A stretch of 64,000 nt of DNA from Streptomyces sp. NBC_00483 (lineage in GTDB: Bacteria; Actinomycetota; Actinomycetes; Streptomycetales; Streptomycetaceae): assembly GCF_036013745.1 (NCBI RefSeq), contig NZ_CP107880.1, positions 4,464,001 through 4,528,000 of the forward strand. Reading direction: 5' to 3'. A program made the translations under genes and the position numbers. Shown here in pieces: positions 2,894-61,240 of the stretch; the stretch's first letter is position 1; the number at the start of each line of letters is the position of its first letter. A model generated the notes under the pieces. The model saw nothing but the letters and a program-made list of their open reading frames with translations. It did no database searches and was not told the origin of the DNA.

Positions 2894-3418
2894 ATGGACC
2901 GTGATTGGAAGCGACTCGGCAAAGCCCTGAAGGCTGACCGCGAGTCCCAAGGCCTCACACAGCCGGACGTCGTCGACGCCCTGGAGTCGAGCCTGTCCAC
3001 GATCCAGGCCATCGAGCGCGGCCAGGAATACGGCAAGCCGACGCGCGCGATCCGTTCCTACGCGAGGCTGCTCAACTGGACTGACGGCTCGGTCGAGCAG
3101 GTGCTGTCCGGCGGCGACCCGAACCACGTCGTCTACGCCACGGCCAGCCTCGGCGGCGGCAAGGCGCCGGCCGATGTCGACCTCGACGACAAGCGCCTGC
3201 CGCTGCGCATCGTGCACGAGCTGAAGGACGACGGCGCGCTGCTCGACACGACCGTCATCAAGGTGGGCGACCACGCGCGTGCCGTCATCGTCGTGAAGGG
3301 TGACCTCGACGCCACGGCCGAGGAGATTGAGGCGGCGCTGAAGGCGTGGCGGGCGACTCAGTCACAGCTGCAGTCGCCGGCCGATGGTGAGTCGCCGTCC
3401 GCGGCCGACGGTTCATAG
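2894..3418 (+). CDS. XRE-family repressor of the element
   Basis: A 174-residue protein with an N-terminal helix-turn-helix (residues about 7-60: LGKALKADRESQGLTQPDVV, then STIQAIERGQEYG) and a C-terminal region of about 80 residues that ends in low-complexity Gln/Ser/Ala. The ATG at 2894 follows GGGGAACC. It diverges from the XRE/excisionase-like gene at 2677. It is the likely maintenance repressor acting on the TGTTCTGAG repeats, which is inferred from position. A second intergenic promoter for this gene was not clear. Confidence 0.7.
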   Translation: MDRDWKRLGKALKADRESQGLTQPDVVDALESSLSTIQAIERGQEYGKPTRAIRSYARLLNWTDGSVEQVLSGGDPNHVVYATASLGGGKAPADVDLDDKRLPLRIVHELKDDGALLDTTVIKVGDHARAVIVVKGDLDATAEEIEAALKAWRATQSQLQSPADGESPSAADGS

Positions 3419-3567
3419 CAGCACTCACGCCCCATTGGGTTGAGACAGGCACAACTGCCCCGAAAGTGTGGAACCATGGCCTGAGCTGACCAGGGGGCCA
3501 CCAAGTCAGACAGGGGTGGTCCTTGGTGTGCGTTCGTTTCTGCGTACGTTTGATCAGAGTGGTGGGT

Positions 3568-3777
3568 ATGCCCCACCAGACGCTCGTGTGGGTAGACCGC
3601 GAGCCATCCCCTGATCATCTCGAAGTCCTCGCCGATGACAGCTTGTTCCGGCGTAGCGTGCTGACGAGCGAGGGCGCGCAGGCTGTCGACGAGGCGCTCG
3701 CCGCGATCCATCCGCAGCTGAATCTGCAGACGGCACGAGTGTGCGCTGCGCATGCGGGCCACGCGGTCGCGGTCTGA
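3568..3777 (+). CDS. Small hypothetical protein before the integrase (69 aa)
   Basis: Sixty-nine residues from ATG 3568, preceded by GGTGGG. A GTG start at 3523 would add 15 residues. It contains the helical stretch DHLEVLADDSLFRRSVLTSE and no recognisable domain. It ends 39 nt before the integrase start, so the two are probably co-transcribed. A reading frame on the other strand overlaps it and cannot be fully excluded, hence moderate confidence. Confidence 0.4.
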   Translation: MPHQTLVWVDREPSPDHLEVLADDSLFRRSVLTSEGAQAVDEALAAIHPQLNLQTARVCAAHAGHAVAV

Positions 3778-3816
3778 AGTCGGCAGTCACAGCGGGAAGT
3801 TCGAGGGGCGGGCGCC

Positions 3817-5187
3817 GTGGCGTATGCAGAGAAGGTCTACAAGGTCAGGGCCGGGAAGGCCACGAAGAAGTTCACGTGGCGGTCCCGGTACCGCAAACCC
3901 GACGGGACGTACGGCAGCGAGCCGGGGTTCCCGACGAAGAACACAGCCGAGTCGTGGGGCGAGGACCAGGAACGAAAGATCAAAGAGGGCACGTGGATCG
4001 ATCCCGATCTCTACCGTGCCGGGTTCGGCAAGTTCGCCCGCAAGTACATGGCCGAACGGCCCAAGCGCGGCCGCACCGTGGGCACCCGGTGGGACCTGCT
4101 CGACAAGCACATCCTGCCCAAGTGGGAGCACGCGCCGCTGATCAGCTTGAACTGGTTCGACGTCGACTCGTGGCAGATGACGCTGCCGTGCGACGACGTG
4201 ACCAAGGGGCACTGCGTGTCGCTGATGTCGACGATCCTCACGGGCGCGGTCGATGCCCGGTGGCTGCCCGTGAATCCGATCCAGGGGCGTCGGCGCACCA
4301 AAGCTGTGTCGACGACGCCCGCGATCGCACCGGCCGGGAGCGACGACGAGAAGGTGTTCACCCCGGAGTCGGTGCTGCAGGTCGCCGAGCGGCTCGGCCC
4401 GGCGAAGGGGCTGCACGTCATCACGACCGCGTGGACCGGGGTCAACTGGGGTGAGGGGCTCGGGCTGCAGCGGGCGAACTGTCTGCGCGTGCGGCGCCAG
4501 CCGTGGGGCAACGGCACGTGGCAGTGCTTCGTGCTGCGCATCGTGCAGGAGGTCGCCGAGTACGAGCAGCGCGACGAGGCCGGCCGGAAGACGGGGACCG
4601 TCCAGAAGATCGAGCCGACGAAGAACGAGTGGCGCACGCGCGATCTGGACCTGCCCCCGTTCCTGGCCCGGTTGTGGTTCCACCACCTTCAGGACTGGCC
4701 GTTCGATTGGATGCTGTGCACGCCGACCGGGAAGTGGTGGCGGCGTTCGAACTGGCTCAAGCAGTTGCGGCCCGCGGCGGATGGGCGCGAGGAGCGTGCC
4801 AAGCGGCAGGGCGCGGCGTATCGCGAGGCGTGGGCGCCGATCGCGCCGGGCATGACGATGCGCTCGCTGCGGCACACGCACGATTCGTGGCAGGACCAGA
4901 TCGGGGTGCGGGCGGCGCTCTCGTTCGAGCAGGCGGGCCACAAGCGGCCGGGCATCAAGGGCGTGTACCAGCACCCGACGCCGGACATGCGGCAGCACCG
5001 GCTCGACGGCATGGAGGAACTGTTCTGGACGGCGATGGGCAACCTTGGGTGGCCGGCGCTGTGGGGCCGGGTGAGTCTCGTGAAGCCGCCCACCGGGGAT
5101 GATCTCCCGAATCTCTCCCAAACGATCTCCATGGAGGATTACCGCCGTGATCGGCGCGGGTACCGCAGCAGGTCAGAAGCCATGTGA
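3817..5187 (+). CDS. Tyrosine recombinase/integrase with atypical catalytic residues
   Basis: 456 residues; size and layout match Streptomyces element integrases, with an SAM-like N-terminal core-binding domain (about 60-170) and a C-terminal catalytic domain (about 190-410). The box II region reads TMRSLRHTHDSW and the end of the domain reads QAGHKRPGIKGVYQHPT, giving the Arg II, His and nucleophile Tyr positions. Two residues are odd: in box I TGVNWGEGLGL the usual catalytic Arg is Asn, and the His of H-x-x-R is Arg. GTG 3817 follows GAGGGG. The gene ends 30 bp before the tRNA fragment at 5218, the usual position of int beside its attachment site. No traSA/traB, rep or prim gene is visible in the window. 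Confidence 0.85.
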   Translation: MAYAEKVYKVRAGKATKKFTWRSRYRKPDGTYGSEPGFPTKNTAESWGEDQERKIKEGTWIDPDLYRAGFGKFARKYMAERPKRGRTVGTRWDLLDKHILPKWEHAPLISLNWFDVDSWQMTLPCDDVTKGHCVSLMSTILTGAVDARWLPVNPIQGRRRTKAVSTTPAIAPAGSDDEKVFTPESVLQVAERLGPAKGLHVITTAWTGVNWGEGLGLQRANCLRVRRQPWGNGTWQCFVLRIVQEVAEYEQRDEAGRKTGTVQKIEPTKNEWRTRDLDLPPFLARLWFHHLQDWPFDWMLCTPTGKWWRRSNWLKQLRPAADGREERAKRQGAAYREAWAPIAPGMTMRSLRHTHDSWQDQIGVRAALSFEQAGHKRPGIKGVYQHPTPDMRQHRLDGMEELFWTAMGNLGWPALWGRVSLVKPPTGDDLPNLSQTISMEDYRRDRRGYRSRSEAM

Positions 5188-5217
5188 TCTAGGGATCCTG
5201 GGGTTTGGTAAGCCAGT

Positions 5218-5262
5218 CTCCTAAAGCGGGTGTCGCAGGTTCGAATCCTGCCGGGGGCACCA
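5218..5262 (+). other. Attachment site: 3' fragment of a tRNA-Arg(CCT) gene
   Basis: The 45 nt run from the anticodon loop (CTCCTAA) through the T-arm (TTCGAAT) to an encoded CCA end. The T-stem pairs (GCAGG/CCTGC), but there is no matching 5' half: upstream sequence belongs to the element. This is the junction left when an element inserts into a tRNA 3' end; the intact tRNA would then lie beyond the left window edge. Bases 5218-5253 are identical to 12236-12271. The amino-acid assignment rests only on the loop sequence. Confidence 0.8.
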
Positions 5263-5266
5263 GTCC

Positions 5267-5308
5267 AGAAGGGGCCCACCTCCGAATTTTCGGAGGTGGG
5301 CCCCTTCT
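5267..5308 (+). terminator. Perfect hairpin terminator after the tRNA fragment
   Basis: Twenty bases (5267-5286) are exactly complementary to 5289-5308 with a two-base centre, giving one of the strongest hairpins in the window. It directly follows the tRNA CCA end and has no T-run, as is usual in Streptomyces. It probably ended the tRNA transcript and now also stops integrase transcription. Confidence 0.75.
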
Positions 5309-5327
5309 GACATCCAGACCTGACATC
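5308..5327 (+). repeat. Attachment-arm repeat, copy 1 (TGACATC x2)
   Basis: TGACATCCAGACCTGACATC holds two TGACATC heptamers 13 bp apart. A near-identical 20-mer lies at 12129-12148, beside the second tRNA core. If the 7-kb island circularised through the 36-bp cores, both copies would flank its joined site, so they could be integrase arm-binding sites. This is inference. Confidence 0.4.
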
Positions 5328-5628
5328 GTCGGCCTCAGTCACCGAAGGTCACCACACCCCTCCCTGAGCAGGACAGTCGTATGTCAGCCGAGGAGTGACT
5401 GTCGCCTGACGAGGTGTACGAGTACATGACCGAGGTCGAGACGACCGGCCCCTGGGATCGGGCAAGCCCTTGCGTGCGGAGCAACAACGGCAAGCGGCTG
5501 ACGCCAGCGCGATAGAACTTTCCCTACTTCATCAAGGCTCGCTCCGCTCGCGGCACGGGGCGCCCCGTGCCGTCGATCATTGCCAACCCAACCGCCAAAG
5601 GGCGCTGTCGCGGATCAACGGCCGCTCT

Positions 5629-9111: not shown

Positions 9112-9651
9112 TCACTCTCCACACCAGAAGCAGACTTCGGCTCCGGGATGGCCGTACTTCTGCGTGCCGCATCGGGTGCAACTGGGTCGACGTGGGCGGG
9201 CCGTGGGTGCGTAGGGTCCAGGTCTGCCATCGGGTGTCTGCCACAGCAGCCATTCATTGACTCGATCCGCGTAGGGGTTCGGTGCCAAGTTCCCTTCGGC
9301 GGGCGGGGCCTCACGCCGCTGGCGCTCGTCATCCAGTGCCAGCTGAAGCTCTCGACGCATGCGGGCTACTTCCTGCGCGCGCTGGAGCCGCCACCTTCTG
9401 CGCAGCATGAGAACGCAGCCAGCATCCGCAGTAGCGCAGAACCATGCTCCACCGAAGTAGTCGACGTCTGCGGCCCATCCGAGCCCTACGCACAGCAGGG
9501 TAAGCGGGGTAAGGCAGATGATCAGGAAGAGAAGGACCGTGGCCCCATTGATCTCTAGATCAAGATCTCCATAGTCGGCAGACGGGCCCTCGCGCCAATG
9601 AGGGGTCACCCAGGTGCCATCGGCGCGGTAATAGCCGCGAACGTGCGGCAC
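9112..9651 (-). CDS. Two-span membrane protein with C-terminal zinc ribbon
   Basis: 179 residues from GTG 9651, next to AGGGGGAG. The order is a short soluble start, two membrane segments (VLLFLIICLTPLTLLCVGLG and a second about 75-95), a charged helix (RAQEVARMRRELQLALDDER), and a C-terminal C-x2-C ... C-x2-C ribbon (CTRCG and CFWCGE) likely to bind zinc. The family is not recognised. The neighbouring gene at 9991-10521 also ends in a C-x2-C/C-x2-C pair and has the same orientation, but repeat copy B separates the two. Confidence 0.5.
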   Translation of the reverse strand: MPHVRGYYRADGTWVTPHWREGPSADYGDLDLEINGATVLLFLIICLTPLTLLCVGLGWAADVDYFGGAWFCATADAGCVLMLRRRWRLQRAQEVARMRRELQLALDDERQRREAPPAEGNLAPNPYADRVNEWLLWQTPDGRPGPYAPTARPRRPSCTRCGTQKYGHPGAEVCFWCGE

Positions 9652-9870
9652 TACTCCCCCTTGCTTGTCATGTTGCACCAATCACGACACGCTACTGCTA
9701 CCCATGATGCGCCAAGTTGCTGTCGACAGAGGTTCGATCGGTGTGGTCCTACGTACAGCCCACCATCGCGGCAGCGCAGTGTGGGAAGAGTTCACGCCGC
9801 CTTGTGCCGAGGAGGCACTGCCCACCGAAGCGCACCTCCGCTAGCTGACAGGTCGCGCAGTGGCGCCTCC

Positions 9871-9970
9871 TACGTCTGGACCACCTGTGGACAGAACCCT
9901 GGACTGTCGTGTTGATCATGGCGCTGACCAGCACGCTACCCACCGCACAAAAGGGCCTCCGGAGCCGTCT
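9871..9970 (+). repeat. Island repeat copy B (100 bp)
   Basis: The second copy of the island repeat. The first box is degenerate (GTCTGGAC), the second TGTGGACAG is intact, and AAGGGCCTCCGGAGC marks the right end. The distance from the second GTGGAC (9887) to GGGCCTCCGG (9953) is again 66 bp. TGTGGACAG also fits a DnaA box in reverse, which may be chance. It sits just past the 3' end of the gene 9991-10521, so here the neighbouring gene reads towards it. Confidence 0.6.
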
Positions 9971-9990
9971 GCGTAGGTTGAACAAGGTCT

Positions 9991-10521
9991 CTATCCACAG
10001 GAGTCGCAGATGCCCGTCACTGGCAACTGCATGAAGCAACCGTCACAAAAGGCTGGCGGCTGCACGGTACGGGCCCGCTGACGCTCAATGGCAGCCTGAT
10101 GCCTGGGAGCAAGGGCAGGAACTCCTCCTCCCGGAGGCAACGTGGCACCGAATCTCCGGTAGCAAGCGAGCCGCGCTTCGGCCGCATGGCGTTCGCGCTC
10201 TAGCACACCAGGTACAGGCGGCTGTCCCGCAACCGCCAACACTTCCTTGTAGCCCTCACCCACCATGCCGTCGTCGCTGTGCACGACCAGCGCGGTCAAG
10301 GGCGGATCTCCTCTTCGGTGGGCTTCACGAACCACGCGCCCGAGGACTGAGCCGATCCAGTTGTGCAGCAGAGCACGGGTGTGAATGCCAGACCGCTCCT
10401 GAACCTCCCGTCCCAACTCTTTGTAGGTGATGACAGCGTGATACGTACGCGCCACCTCGACCAGTACCGCGTAGGCAGTCTGTCCCCACGTTTCGCGAGG
10501 GTCTTGCACGTCGATGCCCAT
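9991..10521 (-). CDS. Unrecognised soluble protein with C-terminal zinc ribbon (176 aa)
   Basis: The ATG at 10521 (or the GTG just before it) follows GGGGGAG. The N-terminal half (ETWGQTAYAVLVEVARTYHA, then ITYKELGREVQERSG) looks like a helical winged-helix-type fold, followed by LTALVVHSDDGMVGEGY. The C-terminus ends CDGCFMQLPVTGICDSCG, a compact C-x2-C pair and C-x2-C pair likely to hold zinc. A nucleic-acid role is plausible but unproven. It diverges from the gene at 10711. Confidence 0.5.
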   Translation of the reverse strand: MGIDVQDPRETWGQTAYAVLVEVARTYHAVITYKELGREVQERSGIHTRALLHNWIGSVLGRVVREAHRRGDPPLTALVVHSDDGMVGEGYKEVLAVAGQPPVPGVLERERHAAEARLACYRRFGATLPPGGGVPALAPRHQAAIERQRARTVQPPAFCDGCFMQLPVTGICDSCG

Positions 10522-10710
10522 CACTGCTCTCCCCCGACGCTGCTTCTCGCTCGATACCGTCCCGCAACGTCCAGCCAATCGTGCCTGCCTGCGGCTCAAA
10601 GTGTCAGTGGAACGGGTGCGTTGAAGCGACCGGACTGGCGGGCCGTTCACCGGCGATGTGGTTCGGGTTCACAGAAGTTGTGACGCTCTTGAGTGAGGGC
10701 TTGGGGCACC

Positions 10711-11544
10711 ATGCCCGATATGACTTACAGTGGCGACCCGTCGGCCGGAAGAATGGCCGTGAGCCCCAAGGAGCTGGCGGAGTGGGGCGATCAATGGGAC
10801 AGGTACGACGCCAGTGTTGATGGCCCTCAACCAGTCCCACACCTCTACACCTGGGTCCGGCAGCGGAACTGGTGGGGCTCCGGTGCGACCCTAAGTCAGC
10901 TTCACTCACTCGCCAGGAACCATGGCATCCCCGTCGCGTGGATACCGCCCGCCGACGTCATCCGTGAACTCGTCCAGGCTGATGACCACCACGCCGCGAA
11001 GCTCGATGTCCTCGTAAGCCACCAAGCGAAGCTACGCACCGCGTGTCGCCGCACGGTTCCGGAAGACTCCGACGGCTGGCATACCGACTACCCCGAAACC
11101 GCCCGGCGTGTACTCGCCGCATGGGAGGACGGTCACCTGCTCGCTGCTGGATGCCTCGCTCTGGCAGCGGCGGAGGACATCATGTTCCTCGTAGCCCGCG
11201 TGGAGCGAACCCGGTACAAGATGTACGACGAGCTGAAGAAGGCAGCGGGTATGGAGCCGCACCCGCAATGGTGGCCGCAGGACCAGGTCGTCCTCACGCC
11301 GATCGAGCCACTGTTCAGTCAGTACTTCCCGGAGAGGCAAGATCCACTCCCACAGAACCTGTCCCGACACGCGGTAATGCATCGCCTGCCGCTGGAGCAC
11401 ATGAACGACGGTCATTGCATCATCGCGATCATGCTTATGCTGTCGCTGCTCGCTGAACTTGAGTGGCACATGATCCAAGAGCGGGCCGAAACGTTCTATG
11501 AGGCCGGGAGCACTGAGGAGGACAGCAAAGGAGTCGATCCCTAA
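10711..11544 (+). CDS. Large helical protein with HEPN-like R-x4-H motif
   Basis: 277 residues from ATG 10711, 5 nt after GGGG; nearby in-frame ATG codons at 10693 and 10720 are alternatives. The first third contains a serine-aromatic region (VPHLYTWVRQRNWWGSG) and the rest is helical. Near residues 219-224 it reads RHAVMH, followed by a hydrophobic helix (CIIAIMLMLSLLAELEW). Many HEPN ribonuclease-type domains have R-x4-6-H at this place before a hydrophobic helix, so a toxin or defence role is possible. The match is to a motif only. Its promoter region is shared with the divergent gene at 10521. Confidence 0.5.
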   Translation: MPDMTYSGDPSAGRMAVSPKELAEWGDQWDRYDASVDGPQPVPHLYTWVRQRNWWGSGATLSQLHSLARNHGIPVAWIPPADVIRELVQADDHHAAKLDVLVSHQAKLRTACRRTVPEDSDGWHTDYPETARRVLAAWEDGHLLAAGCLALAAAEDIMFLVARVERTRYKMYDELKKAAGMEPHPQWWPQDQVVLTPIEPLFSQYFPERQDPLPQNLSRHAVMHRLPLEHMNDGHCIIAIMLMLSLLAELEWHMIQERAETFYEAGSTEEDSKGVDP

Positions 11545-55488: not shown

Positions 55489-55758
55489 GGGGCTCCGCCC
55501 CGGCCCCCCGGGGCGGAGCCCCAAATCAATCCCCGCTCTGGTGACGAGAGCCCGCGGGGCCCCAAATAGAGCCCCTGCGGCGATTGAGCAGCGGGGTATG
55601 GGGCAGAGCCCCAAATAAAGCCCCGCCGGCGATTGAGGCGCGGGGTCCGGGGCAGAGCCCCGATCTTTCAAGCCCGGCCGGCGATCGAGGCGCGGGGCCC
55701 AAATAAAGCCCCTGCGGCGATTGAGCAGCGGGGCCCGGGGCAGAGCCCCGCGACCGCA
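55489..55758. repeat. Array of intergenic palindromic repeats
   Basis: A 13-bp perfect hairpin (55489-55501 with 55510-55522, GGGGCTCCGCCCC) starts an array. At least four units follow at about 55560, 55613, 55666 and 55701, each with AAAGCCCC, a GCGATTGAG-type centre, CGGGG and GGGGCAGAGCCCC. They share the family seen at 24477 and 61165, but here they are stacked in tandem. The region 55379-55842 contains no gene. Confidence 0.7.
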
Positions 55759-57228: not shown

Positions 57229-57336
57229 GAACAAGGCAAACTGACGGGAGTTGTCTTTGATGTGCGCGCGACACGGCGCGCCGGTTGGACGGCGCGGCAG
57301 AATGATGTGCGGACGTGGCAGCAGGGAGCAGTGAAG

Positions 57337-60315
57337 ATGGCCGGTGGACCGCGGGTACCGGAGCAGCGGCGTGCCGCCCCGCCCGAGGACCCCTCGGACG
57401 CGGCCCCGGCCACCGGCGCCGACCTGCGCTTCAGCGTGCTCGGACCGGTGCGGGCCTGGCGCGGCGGAGAGCCCCTGTCCACCGGCTCCCCGCAGCAGCG
57501 CGCCCTCCTCGCCGCCCTCCTGCTGCGCCAGGGGCGCACGGCGACGGCGGCCGAACTCATCGACTCCGTATGGGGCGAGGAGTCCCCGTCGCAGGCGCTG
57601 GCCGCGATCCGCACGTACGCCTCGCGGCTGCGCAAGATCCTCGGCCCCGGCGTCCTGGAGACCGAGGCCGGCGGCTACGCGCTGCGGATGGCGCGGCCCG
57701 ACGCCCTTGACCTCGTGGCGGCCGAGGAGCTGGCGGCGCAGGCCGAGCGGGCGCGGCAGTCCGCCGACCTGTGCCGGGCGCGGACGCTGGTGAACGAGGC
57801 GCTCGACCTCTGGGACGGCGAACCGCTGGCCCACGTACCGGGTCCGCACGCGGAGACGGAGCGCGCCCGCCTCGACGAATGGCGCCTCCAACTCCTGGAA
57901 AACCGCCTCGACATGGACCTGGAGCAGGGCTGCCACGCGGAGGCGGTCTCGGCCCTCACCGCGCTCACCGCGGACCACCCCCTCCGCGAGCGCCTGCGCG
58001 AACTGCTGATGCTCGCCCTCTACCGCTCGGGCCGCCAGGCGGAGGCCCTCGCCGTCTACGCGGACACCCGCCGCCTCCTCGCCGACGAGCTCGGGGTGGA
58101 CCCGCGCGCCGGCCTCTCGGAGCTCCAGCAGCGCATCCTCCAGGCGGACCCGTCCCTGGCGGAGCCCTCGGCGCAGCCGCCGGAGCCCTCGCAGACACCG
58201 CAGCGCCCGGCCCAACTCCCGGCCACAGTCCCGGACTTCACAGGCCGCGCGTCCTTCGTGACGGAACTCAGCGAGACGCTCGCCGCCGCGTCCTCCGAAT
58301 CGGGCACCGGCTCGGTGATGGCGGTCTCGGCGGTGGCGGGCATCGGTGGCGTCGGCAAGACCACCCTCGCCGTGCACGTGGCGCACGCGGCGCGCGCCGC
58401 GTTCCCCGACGGCCAGCTCTACGTGGACCTCCAGGGCACGAGCCCGCGCTGCGCCGAACCCGAGACGGTCCTCGGCTCCTTCCTCCGCGCGCTCGGCGTC
58501 CCGGAGTCGGCGGTCCCCGAGTCCCTGGAGGAGCGCTCGGCCCTGTTCCGCTCGACCCTCGACGGCCGCCGGACCCTGGTCCTCCTCGACAACGCGCGGG
58601 ACGCGGCGCAGGTCAGGCCGCTGCTGCCCGGCACGGCGGGCTGCGCGGCGCTGATCACGGGCCGCGTCCGGATGGTCGACCTGGTGGGCGCGCACCTGGT
58701 GGACCTGGACGTCATGTCCCCCGACGAGGCACTGCTCCTCTTCACCCGCATCGTCGGCGAGGAGCGCGTGACATCGGAGCGCAAGGCGGCGCTCGACGTC
58801 GTCGCGGCCTGCGGCTTCCTCCCCCTGGCAATCCGCATCGCGGCCTCCCGCCTCGCGGCCCGCCGCACGTGGACGGTCTCGGTCCTCGCCGCGAAGCTCG
58901 CGGACGAGCGCCGCCGCCTCGACGAGCTCCAGGCCGGCGACCTCGCGGTCAAGGCCACCTTCGAACTCGGCTACGGCCAACTGGAACCGGCCCAGTCCCG
59001 CGCCTTCCGCCTCCTCGGCCTCGCCGACGGCCCCGACATCTCCCTCGCGGCGGCCTCCGCGGTCCTCGACCTCGACATCGAGTCGACGGAGGACGTCCTG
59101 GAATCCCTGGTCGACACCTCCCTCCTGGAATCCGCCGCCCCGGGCCGCTACCGCTACCACGACCTCGTACGCCTCTACGCGCGTGCGTGCGCGGAACGGG
59201 ACGAGACGAGCACGGACCGGGACGGGGCGCTCTCCCGCCTGCTGGACTTCTATCTGGCGACGGCGACGGGCGTCTACGCGATCGAACGGCCGGGCGACCG
59301 CCTCGTGGACCACGTGGCCCCCACGACCCACCCGGGCCTGTCCTTCGCGGACCAGGCGACAGCTCTGGACTGGCTGTTCGCAGAGGCCGAATGCCTCCTG
59401 GCCTGCCTCCAACAGTCGCTGCGGGCTCCCTTGTTGCGCAGGGCGGCGAGCCTCATTCTCGTGGCCAAGGACCTGTCCGAGTCCGGAGCAAGTTCGCTCC
59501 GGTACGAGCATGCGGCGGTCGCGCTCCGCGACACGGCCCATGACCTGGGCGATGCCGTCGCGGAGGCGCGGGCTCGGACGACGCTGTCCCAGGTGTGGGC
59601 GTTCGCGGGCCGGTTCGACGACGCGGGCCGGGAAGCAGCGGCGGCCATGGACCTCGACGTCGACGCGGACCCCTGGTCGGACGGCCACGCGCCGCACGAG
59701 CGCGGCATCATCGCCTTCTACAGGAACGATCTCGACCAGGCGGAGACGTACCTTCGTACGGCCCTGGAGAACTTCCGGGCGGACAAGAACACTCCCGGTG
59801 AGGCCAGCGCGCTCTGCAATCTCTCGCGCATCCACCTGGCCCAGAACAGAACCGGCAGCGCCATAGAACTCGCCGAGCAGGGAATCCAGATCTACGACCG
59901 CCTCGGCACGGCCCTGCGCCTGGCCAACGGACGGTACGCCCTCGGGCTGGCACTGACCGCGGCGCGCCGATATGGCGAGGCCCTCGACCAACTCACCGCC
60001 GCACTCGGCATCTTCCGCGAGAATCGCCAACCCCTGTGGGAGGGCGTCACACACCTCCGGCTCGCCGAGGTCCATCTCGGGGCCAAGCGGGCCCCGCTCG
60101 CCGCCGCCCACGCCGAGCAGGCCATCGCGCTGCGCGGCATCGGTGGCGAGTGGCGCAGGGGAGGCATACTCACCGTCCTGGGCCGGGCGTTGGCGATGCT
60201 CGGACAGCCGGATCGGGCCCATGCCTGTTGGAGCGAGGCCCTCGCGATCTACGAGCGTCTCGGTTCCCCCGAGGCCGCCGAGGTCCGGGCGCTGATGAAG
60301 CCCGTCGCCGCATAG
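57337..60315 (+). CDS. afsR: AfsR-type pleiotropic regulator (SARP, NB-ARC, TPR)
   Basis: 992 residues from ATG 57337. The N-terminus (GGPRVPEQRRAAPPEDPS) and the OmpR-type wing plus BTAD module (about 30-270, LRFSVLGPVRAWRGGEPLS) match AfsR. NB-ARC ATPase follows, with P-loop GIGGVGKTTLAVH near 334 and VLLDNA near 412. Tetratricopeptide repeats fill the last third. In S. coelicolor AfsR is phosphorylated by AfsK and activates afsS, and so promotes antibiotic production. The length equals the classic protein. Here afsS follows at once. Confidence 0.9.
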   Translation: MAGGPRVPEQRRAAPPEDPSDAAPATGADLRFSVLGPVRAWRGGEPLSTGSPQQRALLAALLLRQGRTATAAELIDSVWGEESPSQALAAIRTYASRLRKILGPGVLETEAGGYALRMARPDALDLVAAEELAAQAERARQSADLCRARTLVNEALDLWDGEPLAHVPGPHAETERARLDEWRLQLLENRLDMDLEQGCHAEAVSALTALTADHPLRERLRELLMLALYRSGRQAEALAVYADTRRLLADELGVDPRAGLSELQQRILQADPSLAEPSAQPPEPSQTPQRPAQLPATVPDFTGRASFVTELSETLAAASSESGTGSVMAVSAVAGIGGVGKTTLAVHVAHAARAAFPDGQLYVDLQGTSPRCAEPETVLGSFLRALGVPESAVPESLEERSALFRSTLDGRRTLVLLDNARDAAQVRPLLPGTAGCAALITGRVRMVDLVGAHLVDLDVMSPDEALLLFTRIVGEERVTSERKAALDVVAACGFLPLAIRIAASRLAARRTWTVSVLAAKLADERRRLDELQAGDLAVKATFELGYGQLEPAQSRAFRLLGLADGPDISLAAASAVLDLDIESTEDVLESLVDTSLLESAAPGRYRYHDLVRLYARACAERDETSTDRDGALSRLLDFYLATATGVYAIERPGDRLVDHVAPTTHPGLSFADQATALDWLFAEAECLLACLQQSLRAPLLRRAASLILVAKDLSESGASSLRYEHAAVALRDTAHDLGDAVAEARARTTLSQVWAFAGRFDDAGREAAAAMDLDVDADPWSDGHAPHERGIIAFYRNDLDQAETYLRTALENFRADKNTPGEASALCNLSRIHLAQNRTGSAIELAEQGIQIYDRLGTALRLANGRYALGLALTAARRYGEALDQLTAALGIFRENRQPLWEGVTHLRLAEVHLGAKRAPLAAAHAEQAIALRGIGGEWRRGGILTVLGRALAMLGQPDRAHACWSEALAIYERLGSPEAAEVRALMKPVAA

Positions 60316-60330
60316 GCCCGTCGGGCGGCC

Positions 60331-60348
60331 GTTCATCATTCGTTTATC
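60331..60348 (+). promoter_or_regulatory. Candidate AfsR operator of afsS: two heptamers 11 bp apart
   Basis: GTTCATC (60331-60337) and GTTTATC (60342-60348) start 11 bp apart, one helical turn, in the region between afsR and afsS. Direct heptamers with an 11-bp period beside the -10 are the known target form of SARP/OmpR-type activators. I could not find a good -10 at the expected distance, so the promoter itself is unsettled. Confidence 0.6.
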
Positions 60349-60444
60349 CCGGAGCGCCACTCTCTTCCTTGCCGACCCGTCGCGTCGGGGGGCAGACGGA
60401 TTGGCGGTGGGGCCGGCCGTTACGGTGACGGCCCCCACGATGGC

Positions 60445-60476
60445 CGCCCGGCAACCCACGGGGGAGTTGCCGGGCG
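60445..60476 (+). terminator. Hairpin in the afsR-afsS interval
   Basis: CGCCCGGCAAC (60445-60455) pairs with GTTGCCGGGCG (60466-60476) around ten bases. It lies 42 bp before the afsS start and could end afsR transcription, regulate the afsS leader, or do both. Confidence 0.6.
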
Positions 60477-60518
60477 GGCGTCTTCCGTACGCACGCCACT
60501 CACAGAGGGACCATCGCC

Positions 60519-60698
60519 ATGAGCGACAAGATCAAGCCGCAGGACAGCCACATCTCGAGCGAAGAACTCGACGAGGTGAAGCCGCTCGACAGTCACATCT
60601 CGAGCGAAGAACTCGACGAGGTGAAGCCGCAGGACAGCCACATCTCCGGCGGCACCGTCACCCCGCAGGACTCGCACATATCGAGCGAGCCGGCCTGA
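60519..60698 (+). CDS. afsS: AfsS-like small regulatory protein with PxDSHIS repeats
   Basis: 59 residues. The motif KPQDSHIS, KPLDSHIS, KPQDSHIS, TPQDSHIS occurs four times. Two of the units are linked by identical SSEELDEVK, so 48 bp are almost perfectly duplicated. Short repeats with a D-[NS]-H core beside afsR are the hallmark of AfsS/AfsR2, a small protein that raises pathway-specific antibiotic regulators by an unsettled route. ATG 60519 follows GAGGGA. The gene is too short for standard gene finders but lies exactly where afsS is expected. Confidence 0.8.
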   Translation: MSDKIKPQDSHISSEELDEVKPLDSHISSEELDEVKPQDSHISGGTVTPQDSHISSEPA

Positions 60699-60883
60699 GA
60701 GCCACCACGGAGACGGGGACCGGCCGCGGCGGCTCGGAGGGGGAACCGCCGCGGCCGAGGCGTACCCAAGGACGAGTTCAGGCCATTCGACGGCCGGAAC
60801 CCTTCGAACACTCGAACATCTCTCCCTCTTGGCACTAGCGTCACTCGCCGACCAGAGTTCGTATCGCGCCCAGAGGAGTAGGT

Positions 60884-61045
60884 ATGACTCGCACCAAGAA
60901 GGCCCTCGTCACCGTCGCCGTCGCGATCGCCGCCGTCGGCGGGGCTGCCGCCTCCGCGTCCGCCAACACGCACGTCACCGTGACGCCGAACAACACCCAC
61001 GTCACGGTGGCGCCGGACAACACCCACGTCACCGGCGCCAATTGA
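60884..61045 (+). CDS. Exported 53-aa peptide with NTHVT repeats
   Basis: A 53-residue reading from ATG 60884, 5 nt after GAGGAG. Residues 1-27 form a classical signal peptide (basic TRTKK, hydrophobic LVTVAVAIAAVGGAA, cleavage expected after ASASA). The predicted mature part is about 26 residues and consists of three units: NTHVTVTPN, NTHVTVAPD, NTHVTGAN. The core P-x-[DN]-T-H-V-T mirrors P-x-D-S-H-I-S of the neighbouring AfsS. No protease or modification gene is nearby. A strong hairpin follows at 61067. Function unknown; a secreted signal or a surface peptide is possible. Confidence 0.75.
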   Translation: MTRTKKALVTVAVAIAAVGGAAASASANTHVTVTPNNTHVTVAPDNTHVTGAN

Positions 61046-61066
61046 TCCACGTCAGGTAACGCGCGC

Positions 61067-61094
61067 GAAGGCCGGGCCCCGAGCCCGGCCCTTC
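61067..61094 (+). terminator. Terminator after the exported peptide
   Basis: GAAGGCCGGGC pairs with GCCCGGCC(C)TTC with one bulged base around CCCGA. It lies 21 bp after the stop codon, ending the afsS-region transcript. Confidence 0.65.
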
Positions 61095-61164
61095 GTCATG
61101 CCGACCGGAACGCGCCCGCCTCCACGCCGCCGATCGAGGAGCAAGGGCCAGGACACGCGCCCCA

Positions 61165-61216
61165 TTCCAGCCCCGCCGGCGCTTGAGGCGCGGGGCCCGG
61201 GGCAGAGCCCCGCGAC
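61165..61216. repeat. Intergenic palindromic repeat copy
   Basis: One unit of the GGGGC/GCCCC family (AGCCCCGCCGGCGCTTGAGG then CGGGGCAGAGCCCCG) between the exported peptide and the convergent hemB. Confidence 0.6.
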
Positions 61217-61240
61217 CGCAACCACGTCGCGCCGGAACCC

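Follow-up and report, generated by a model that had tools for sequence, protein, structure and literature searches.

Co-variation of the AfsS repeat motif with the TPR domain of AfsR in Streptomyces, and a predicted exported peptide that carries an AfsS-type motif

Two small genes lie behind afsR in the window, i.e., the whole 64,000-nt stretch of Streptomyces sp. NBC_00483 DNA analyzed here. The features are as follows:

57262..60315, (+) strand: afsR, encoding a SARP + NB-ARC + TPR regulator (NF053617; BTAD, NB-ARC, and TPR Pfam domains)
59329..60312, (+) strand: TPR sensor domain of AfsR, residues 690–1017, hypervariable and co-varying with the AfsS motif; proposed receptor for that motif
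60330..60351, (+) strand: afs-box-like direct repeat CGTTCATCATT / CGTTTATCCCG upstream of afsS, recognized by likeness to the published afs box consensus
60519..60698, (+) strand: afsS-like gene (ORF with repeats), 59 aa, acidic product, four DSHIS motifs
60543–60557, 60588–60602, 60633–60647, and 60669–60683, (+) strand: DSHIS copies of the afsS-like gene
60803..60816, (+) strand: inverted repeat TTCGAACACTCGAA upstream of the peptide gene, from a repeat search across loci
60835..60847, (+) strand: promoter-like element of CTAGCGTCACT type upstream of the peptide gene, from a mismatch search and alignment
60884..60964, (+) strand: predicted signal peptide MTRTKKALVTVAVAIAAVGGAAASASA, with an MTRTKK-type start and an A-x-A site, both seen again in other family members
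60965..61042, (+) strand: predicted mature exported peptide with NTHVT three times; a motif-like word follows A-x-A family-wide
59290..61231, no strand assigned: allelic cassette, window strain versus Streptomyces sp. NBC_01016 (L067), left edge approximate

By its family score, the gene at 57262–60315 is a true AfsR: its product reached 1710 bits against NCBIfam NF053617, above the curated cut-off of 1430, and its NB-ARC domain matched PF00931 with 46.9 bits (cut-off 23.5). The AF2 model of residues 600–1017, our own reading of which supplies the TPR numbering and the A/B helix naming, had a mean pLDDT of 88.4. The 59-aa product scored 23.7 bits against NF053616, below the curated cut-off of 60. 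It is a small repeat protein encoded directly downstream of afsR and behind an afs-box-like repeat, which is the position of AfsS, and the name AfsS-like is taken from this position, the repeats, and the afs-box-like repeat only. The afs box consensus is given as CGTT(T/C)ATCGNN in the accessible text of PMC10972967, and the window repeat is two bases off.

A sequence-only reading had placed both small ORFs here, and we found them at 60519–60698 and 60884–61045. All four P-x-D-S-H-I-S motifs that it described are present, with P-x before every DSHIS. The exported-peptide ORF encodes 53 aa with a KK-hydrophobic-ASA signal, and its mature part is predicted, as that reading had it, to comprise 26 residues with three N-T-H-V-T units. 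The distance between the genes is indeed short, although it measures 185 bp rather than 186 bp. Neither small ORF of the window had a Pfam match at E 1. A search of the strain's own genome returned weak matches to both elsewhere, which were taken as unrelated, the best match of AfsS falling in what is presumably a DyP peroxidase. A scan for RNA families returned none at gathering score, and a pattern scan found no sigma-70 promoter or terminator pattern.

Next, we explored how the AfsS motif varies between strains. AfsR matched in 291 of 295 Streptomyces genomes, and loci were drawn from the best-scoring places listed, so that AfsR with weak scores are underrepresented. The main set comprised the window and 259 loci (L008–L146 and L167–L286; L147–L166 were left out because L037–L066 cover mostly the same genomes), with an AfsR end in 257 loci, an AfsS call in 250, and several genomes represented twice. 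These 250 loci held 63 types of consensus motif, with 2 to 10 copies per protein. Within one AfsS, 96% of motif positions agreed with the protein's own consensus, compared with 49% between different proteins; the caller needs at least two similar words, which inflates within-protein uniformity, yet it still succeeded in 250 of the 257 loci. The codons of the copies were close to independent (agreement of 0.63 versus 0.54 expected, for multi-codon residues in 2,648 comparisons) and differ between the DSHIS copies of the window, so recent repeat duplication was rejected as the cause of uniform motifs, and the sameness appears to be kept by protein-level selection. Even the His of the motif was replaced in 14 of the 250 loci (DNSMP, NNAMP, DNPMP, DNAMP, DNGMP, DTNMP, and DHNMP), among them L210, L245, L253, L256, L265, L273, L274, and L277. 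The 12 His-replaced loci that entered the set of pairs described below have the TPR residues G860, H820, H921, and I785 in common.

The SARP and NB-ARC parts of AfsR were conserved, and the TPR part was hypervariable. Among 211 non-redundant AfsR-AfsS pairs (from 226 with full-length AfsR), AfsS motif distance correlated with TPR distance (r = 0.72) and hardly with distance in the N-terminal part of AfsR (r = 0.07); the partial correlation between motif and TPR was 0.72, and the best of 2000 permutations reached 0.077. At a TPR distance of <0.1, the motif was shared in 116/116 pairs. Where the N-terminal parts were nearly identical (distance <0.03), it was shared in 19/19 pairs at TPR <0.15 and in 0/21 at TPR >0.25. 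Specifically, TPR 813 D/N went with motif N at −1 (60/60 N), 813 E with S at −1 (25/29 S), and 813 A with L/M/I at −1 (35/37 A); TPR 929 M went with motif T at +2 (137/137 T), and 886 K occurred only with motif N at −2 (39/39 K). A residue code built on such positions predicted motif −1 correctly in 0.75 of cases versus a baseline of 0.29, with TPR relatives at distance <0.12 left out and the key residues chosen on all data.

Comparison of close strains revealed how these segments travel. The window and L067 share ~99% DNA identity up to ~59290 and again from 61232; inside this block, identity was 0.52–0.78 in 100-bp bins from 59300 to 61200. The replaced block consists of the TPR segment, afsS, and the peptide gene. 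L067 carries a diverged allele whose AfsS has NTHVT as its motif; an exported peptide was not found in its replaced block. In six pairs of loci, picked for differing TPR parts and with L060 in two of them, the drop in identity fell into one common 200-bp bin that lies ~1 kb upstream of the afsR stop codon, and the right edge varied. At the DNA level, one cassette, comprising the TPR domain, afsS, and the peptide gene if there is one, is passed on and exchanged as a unit. Two further details concern this comparison: L067 has a 391-aa ORF (9590–10765, minus strand) between afsS and hemB, where the window has the exported peptide, and the window segments 55508–55750 and 61122–61226 match several other places near the sister's locus, a pattern expected of a dispersed repeat.

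The gene for the exported peptide belongs to a genuine family of scattered occurrence. It had a match at E 0.01 in 32 of 295 Streptomyces genomes, a lower bound at the sensitivity of the search, and was not found in the other 263 searched. The doubt raised with the first description, that relatives might have no conserved peptide at this locus, is removed by the 26 of 29 fetched loci in which AfsR lies within 1.5 kb of the match; one further match is ~1.6 kb off. For analysis, 49 peptide calls were reduced to 39 without identical ones and to 38 after L199 was dropped as noise; left out were L034 (DTHAS-type peptide, no AfsS call), L027/L306 (no AfsS call), L035 (DDHST peptide 1.6 kb from AfsR), and L029 and L032 (no AfsR nearby). 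In the 80 named loci (L067–L146), some of which are cut by contig ends, nine had a peptide call. The 38 distinct peptides follow one plan, an MTRTKK-type signal and then an A-x-A site, with a motif-like word directly after that site in 34/38 and at the C-terminus in 19/38, as detected by a finder that also catches some signal-peptide words. The gap between afsS and the peptide gene ranged from 62 to 316 bp and was 170–210 bp in 23/38.

Some of these loci share upstream elements. An inverted repeat of the TTCGAACACTCGAA kind occurred in 8/38 exported-peptide loci versus 5/209 other loci, and a CTAGCGTCACT-type element (three mismatches or fewer; shuffle rate of 1.25%) in 14/38 versus 8/209 loci without a kept peptide, seven of these eight being second copies from peptide-bearing genomes. 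In the window, the stretch 60803–60847 before the peptide gene, with the inverted repeat and the CTAGCGTCAC element, is unlike the afs-box-like repeat of afsS.

Motif likeness between the exported peptide and AfsS, first noticed in the window alone, holds across the family of 38 distinct peptides: the best match to the own-locus AfsS averaged 3.68/5 identities versus 2.59 for permuted pairs (sd 0.145; 20,000 permutations, p = 5e-5), by which chance likeness was ruled out. In the window itself, DSHIS and NTHVT have the His alone in common. The D/N, S/T, and I/V swaps were described as conservative, which they are chemically, yet they fall at positions that apparently set specificity. By the residue code, NTHVT scores −5.2 on the window's own AfsR, which it ranks mid-list (0.5), and +3.4 on the sister's, and these scores lend no support to the idea that the two motifs of the window are interchangeable. 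When all AfsR are ranked by the code for each of the 38 exported motifs, the median place of the own AfsR is 0.115 from the top; a fairly good predicted fit between the two is thus the common case, which weighs against a general non-self role.

We then compared each exported motif with the AfsS of close sisters. A case was testable when a peptide-bearing genome had a close sister (N-part distance <0.036) with another TPR allele, and the sister's AfsS motif was matched exactly in 4/8 such genomes (null mean 0.26, p = 2e-4), a small sample in which two of the matched motifs, DNHAT and NTHVT, are common ones. Six distance cut-offs yielded 2/2, 3/4, 3/5, 4/8, 4/12, and 4/18 exact matches (p from 1.5e-4 to 4.5e-4). 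The exact matches are:

window/L067: NTHVT
L172/L068: DTHIS
L200/L058 and others: DNHAT
L207/L051: DTHAT

Given the median rank of 0.115 on the one hand and the exact sister matches on the other, the family may be a mixture of peptides that fit the own AfsR and peptides that fit a foreign one, and we read the exported peptide as a sometimes non-self mimic of AfsS, predicted to be exported. A peptide might instead keep the motif of a resident allele since replaced; this is not favored for L200/L058, because L058 is without the exported gene, and is possible at the other loci.

Several explanations compete with a peptide acting on the AfsR of neighbors. AfsS could be the AfsR ligand while the exported peptide serves another extracellular role (e.g., at the wall or surface), its motif being an inherited resemblance that drifts with AfsS. 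The sporadic occurrence of the gene agrees with this, as do the exact identity with the own AfsS motif in only 1/38 peptides and a predicted fit to the own AfsR better than that of the own AfsS in only 6/38. Such drift sits poorly with the L021/L031 peptides, in which the motif copies change together while the linkers largely stay, with the 26/38 peptides whose motif word is also known from some AfsS, and with L028, where AfsS and the exported peptide alike have His-less motifs. Other genera add to this. In 20 such loci, seven had an AfsS-like repeat ORF (DWHAT, DNWH-type, DNQYQ, and NWQPT), and four (L313, L316, L317, and L318), found with a pattern chosen after a first look at those loci, had a small ORF ending NW-type beside an exported ORF with a related motif: both small ORFs carry DNW-type motifs in L313, L316, and L318 and related motifs in L317. 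Nine of the 20 had neither an AfsS-like repeat ORF nor an NW-type pair. Taken together, we regard a separate extracellular role as rather doubtful. The conserved locus, the signal peptide, the promoter-like element in some loci, and the other-genus pairs (4/20) make plausible the extracellular arm of the AfsR system that the sequence-only reading had imagined.

Alternatively, the peptide could work as a self-directed pheromone of the RRNPP kind, which after export and trimming would return into the cell and inform the strain's own AfsR about density. This idea draws on the signal peptide, the motif at the predicted mature N-terminus in most of the family (34/38), the adjoining TPR receptor with a model similar to Rap and NprR, the correlation of the exported motif with the own AfsS, and the high rank of the own AfsR. 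However, the window motif shares only the His with its own AfsS and scores poorly on its own AfsR, and in four genomes the exact match is to the AfsS of a sister. We consider a self-pheromone unlikely.

A third alternative is that linkage alone accounts for the co-variation, the TPR segment and afsS recombining together so that the correlation records history between proteins that make no contact. Since the two adjoin, part of the correlation does come from linkage; the cassette carries both, with its left breakpoint in the same bin in six pairs, and TPR positions outside the groove also have excess mutual information with the motif. Nevertheless, this excess was 0.38–0.54 of entropy in TPR segments versus 0.13–0.18 in others, motif −1 is linked to individual TPR residues whose chemistry corresponds, and uniform repeats with near-independent codons require a protein-level cause. 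Moreover, when the TPR tree was computed with 21 key residues removed (residue 809 stayed in), changes at 813 coincided with changes at motif −1 in 13/25 cases (1.9 expected, p = 6e-10). After 813, motif −1 tracks TPR 780, 809, 736, and 816. With correction for up to ~2,800 tests (709 variable positions × 4), motif −1 alone survives; the leads for −2, +1, and +2 have few changes and include the N-part residues 54, 52, 170, and 307. Contrasts of related pairs that differ at one motif position pointed partly to the same TPR residues. An 843/−2 charge swap, apparent in the residue table, was rejected, as the tree shows one shared change of 7 and 7. Three tests for enrichment of co-varying positions in the groove had a mixed outcome: weak enrichment in A helices (p = 0.09), enrichment in textbook groove sites for top lists (p = 0.003–0.03), and, by motif position, p = 0.03 for −2, 0.21 for −1, 0.16 for +1, and 0.12 for +2. 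Overall, linkage without contact appears improbable. Finally, that AfsS is sigma-like and acts on RNA polymerase, its likeness to the peptide being incidental, has the published label and mutant phenotype in its favor (accessible text of PMC2267785) but is very hard to sustain, as 63 motif types are difficult to reconcile with a conserved polymerase target and the His itself is replaced in 14/250 loci.

Starting from the observed genes, linkage, cassette exchange, co-variation, and vocabulary common to AfsS and the exported peptide, we propose that AfsR, a STAND regulator, senses peptides. The groove of its C-terminal TPR domain very probably binds the short repeated motif of AfsS, as the co-variation suggests, with AfsS as a multivalent intracellular ligand whose gene is under AfsR control; AfsS would thereby feed back on the regulator that switches afsS on. 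The shared binding surface suggested earlier is well, if indirectly, supported by the co-variation and the vocabulary common to the exported peptide. That peptide, an array of AfsS-type motifs preceded by a signal peptide, would be secreted and probably trimmed, and we see an even chance that it enters neighboring mycelia and engages AfsR TPR domains there. For the window peptide, we tentatively suggest that it would signal between strains or interfere as a ligand, and would not serve its producer as a self-signal, because NTHVT would fit the AfsR of NTHVT-allele sisters and not that of its own strain. Binding, export, processing, uptake, and direction of effect are the steps that we infer from sequence; the explanation as a whole, an AfsS-sensing AfsR with cassette exchange and an exported AfsS-type peptide acting on neighbors, seems to us somewhat probable.

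The proposed arrangement resembles the RRNPP systems (Rap-Phr, NprR-NprX, PlcR-PapR, and ComR-ComS) in that a TPR receptor is encoded beside a small peptide gene and the exported peptide beside AfsR has a signal sequence. The RRNPP hallmarks seen at the AfsR locus are a TPR superhelical receptor and an adjacent gene with an export signal, the latter sporadic in the genus. In a structural comparison, the TPR model resembles solved TPR-peptide complexes, including Rap and NprR with their pheromones, but many TPR proteins outside RRNPP also match it, several of them better. As for kinship of the receptor to Rap, Rgg, NprR, PlcR, and PrgX, NCBIfam gives AfsR, and the similarity observed is one of fold, to Rap/NprR only. 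In contrast to RRNPP, the receptor is a SARP-NB-ARC-TPR STAND protein, the main candidate ligand, AfsS, is without a signal peptide and carries 2–10 motif copies, and the exported peptide is optional, with a motif that is usually not identical to that of AfsS. Pheromone-sensor coevolution is described for ComR/ComS in the accessible part of PMC8605241.

Compared with AfsR-AfsS of S. coelicolor, the gene pair, the afs-box-like repeat, and the AfsR family match are the same, but the published AfsS, with three 12-residue repeats, is termed sigma-like (PMC2267785, accessible text), with no mention in the text available of motif variation, co-variation, or an exported relative. Likewise, we found no description of AfsS motif variation, AfsR-AfsS co-variation, or the exported peptide in the open-access literature as far as its text was available. 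There, inducer binding at the AfsR sensor domain is called elusive (PMC10936776) and the mode of AfsS action as yet unknown (PMC10972967); co-variation would offer one testable answer to both. The residue code predicts which AfsS pairs with which AfsR, and the co-variation suggests why AfsS may fail across species when used to wake silent antibiotic genes. AfsR is like such NLR/STAND nonself-recognition receptors in having an NB-ARC core with a variable repeat sensor and differs in that its variable ligand is encoded beside the receptor and exchanged with it; we know of no immune role of AfsR-AfsS. Fungal NLR-like genes are linked to nonself recognition in the available text of PMC4986451. AfsR-AfsS could possibly be a polymorphic recognition system, in which close strains swap dozens of receptor-ligand types as cassettes and some cassettes also export a rival allele's motif; strains would then be able to sense, or interfere with, the antibiotic master switch of others. 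Should the exported peptide act on the AfsR of other strains, related strains would control one another's antibiotic production by peptide.

Two loci show other arrangements of these genes. In L303, a DDHST-repeat exported peptide (5000–5320) lies ~1.6 kb after AfsR, with no AfsS-like repeat ORF between them under the filter used. In L306, two convergent AfsR-like genes (3–2108 and 3047–5536) occur in one genome, and between them lie an ERHQT-type AfsS-like ORF and an exported peptide ending ERHQS.
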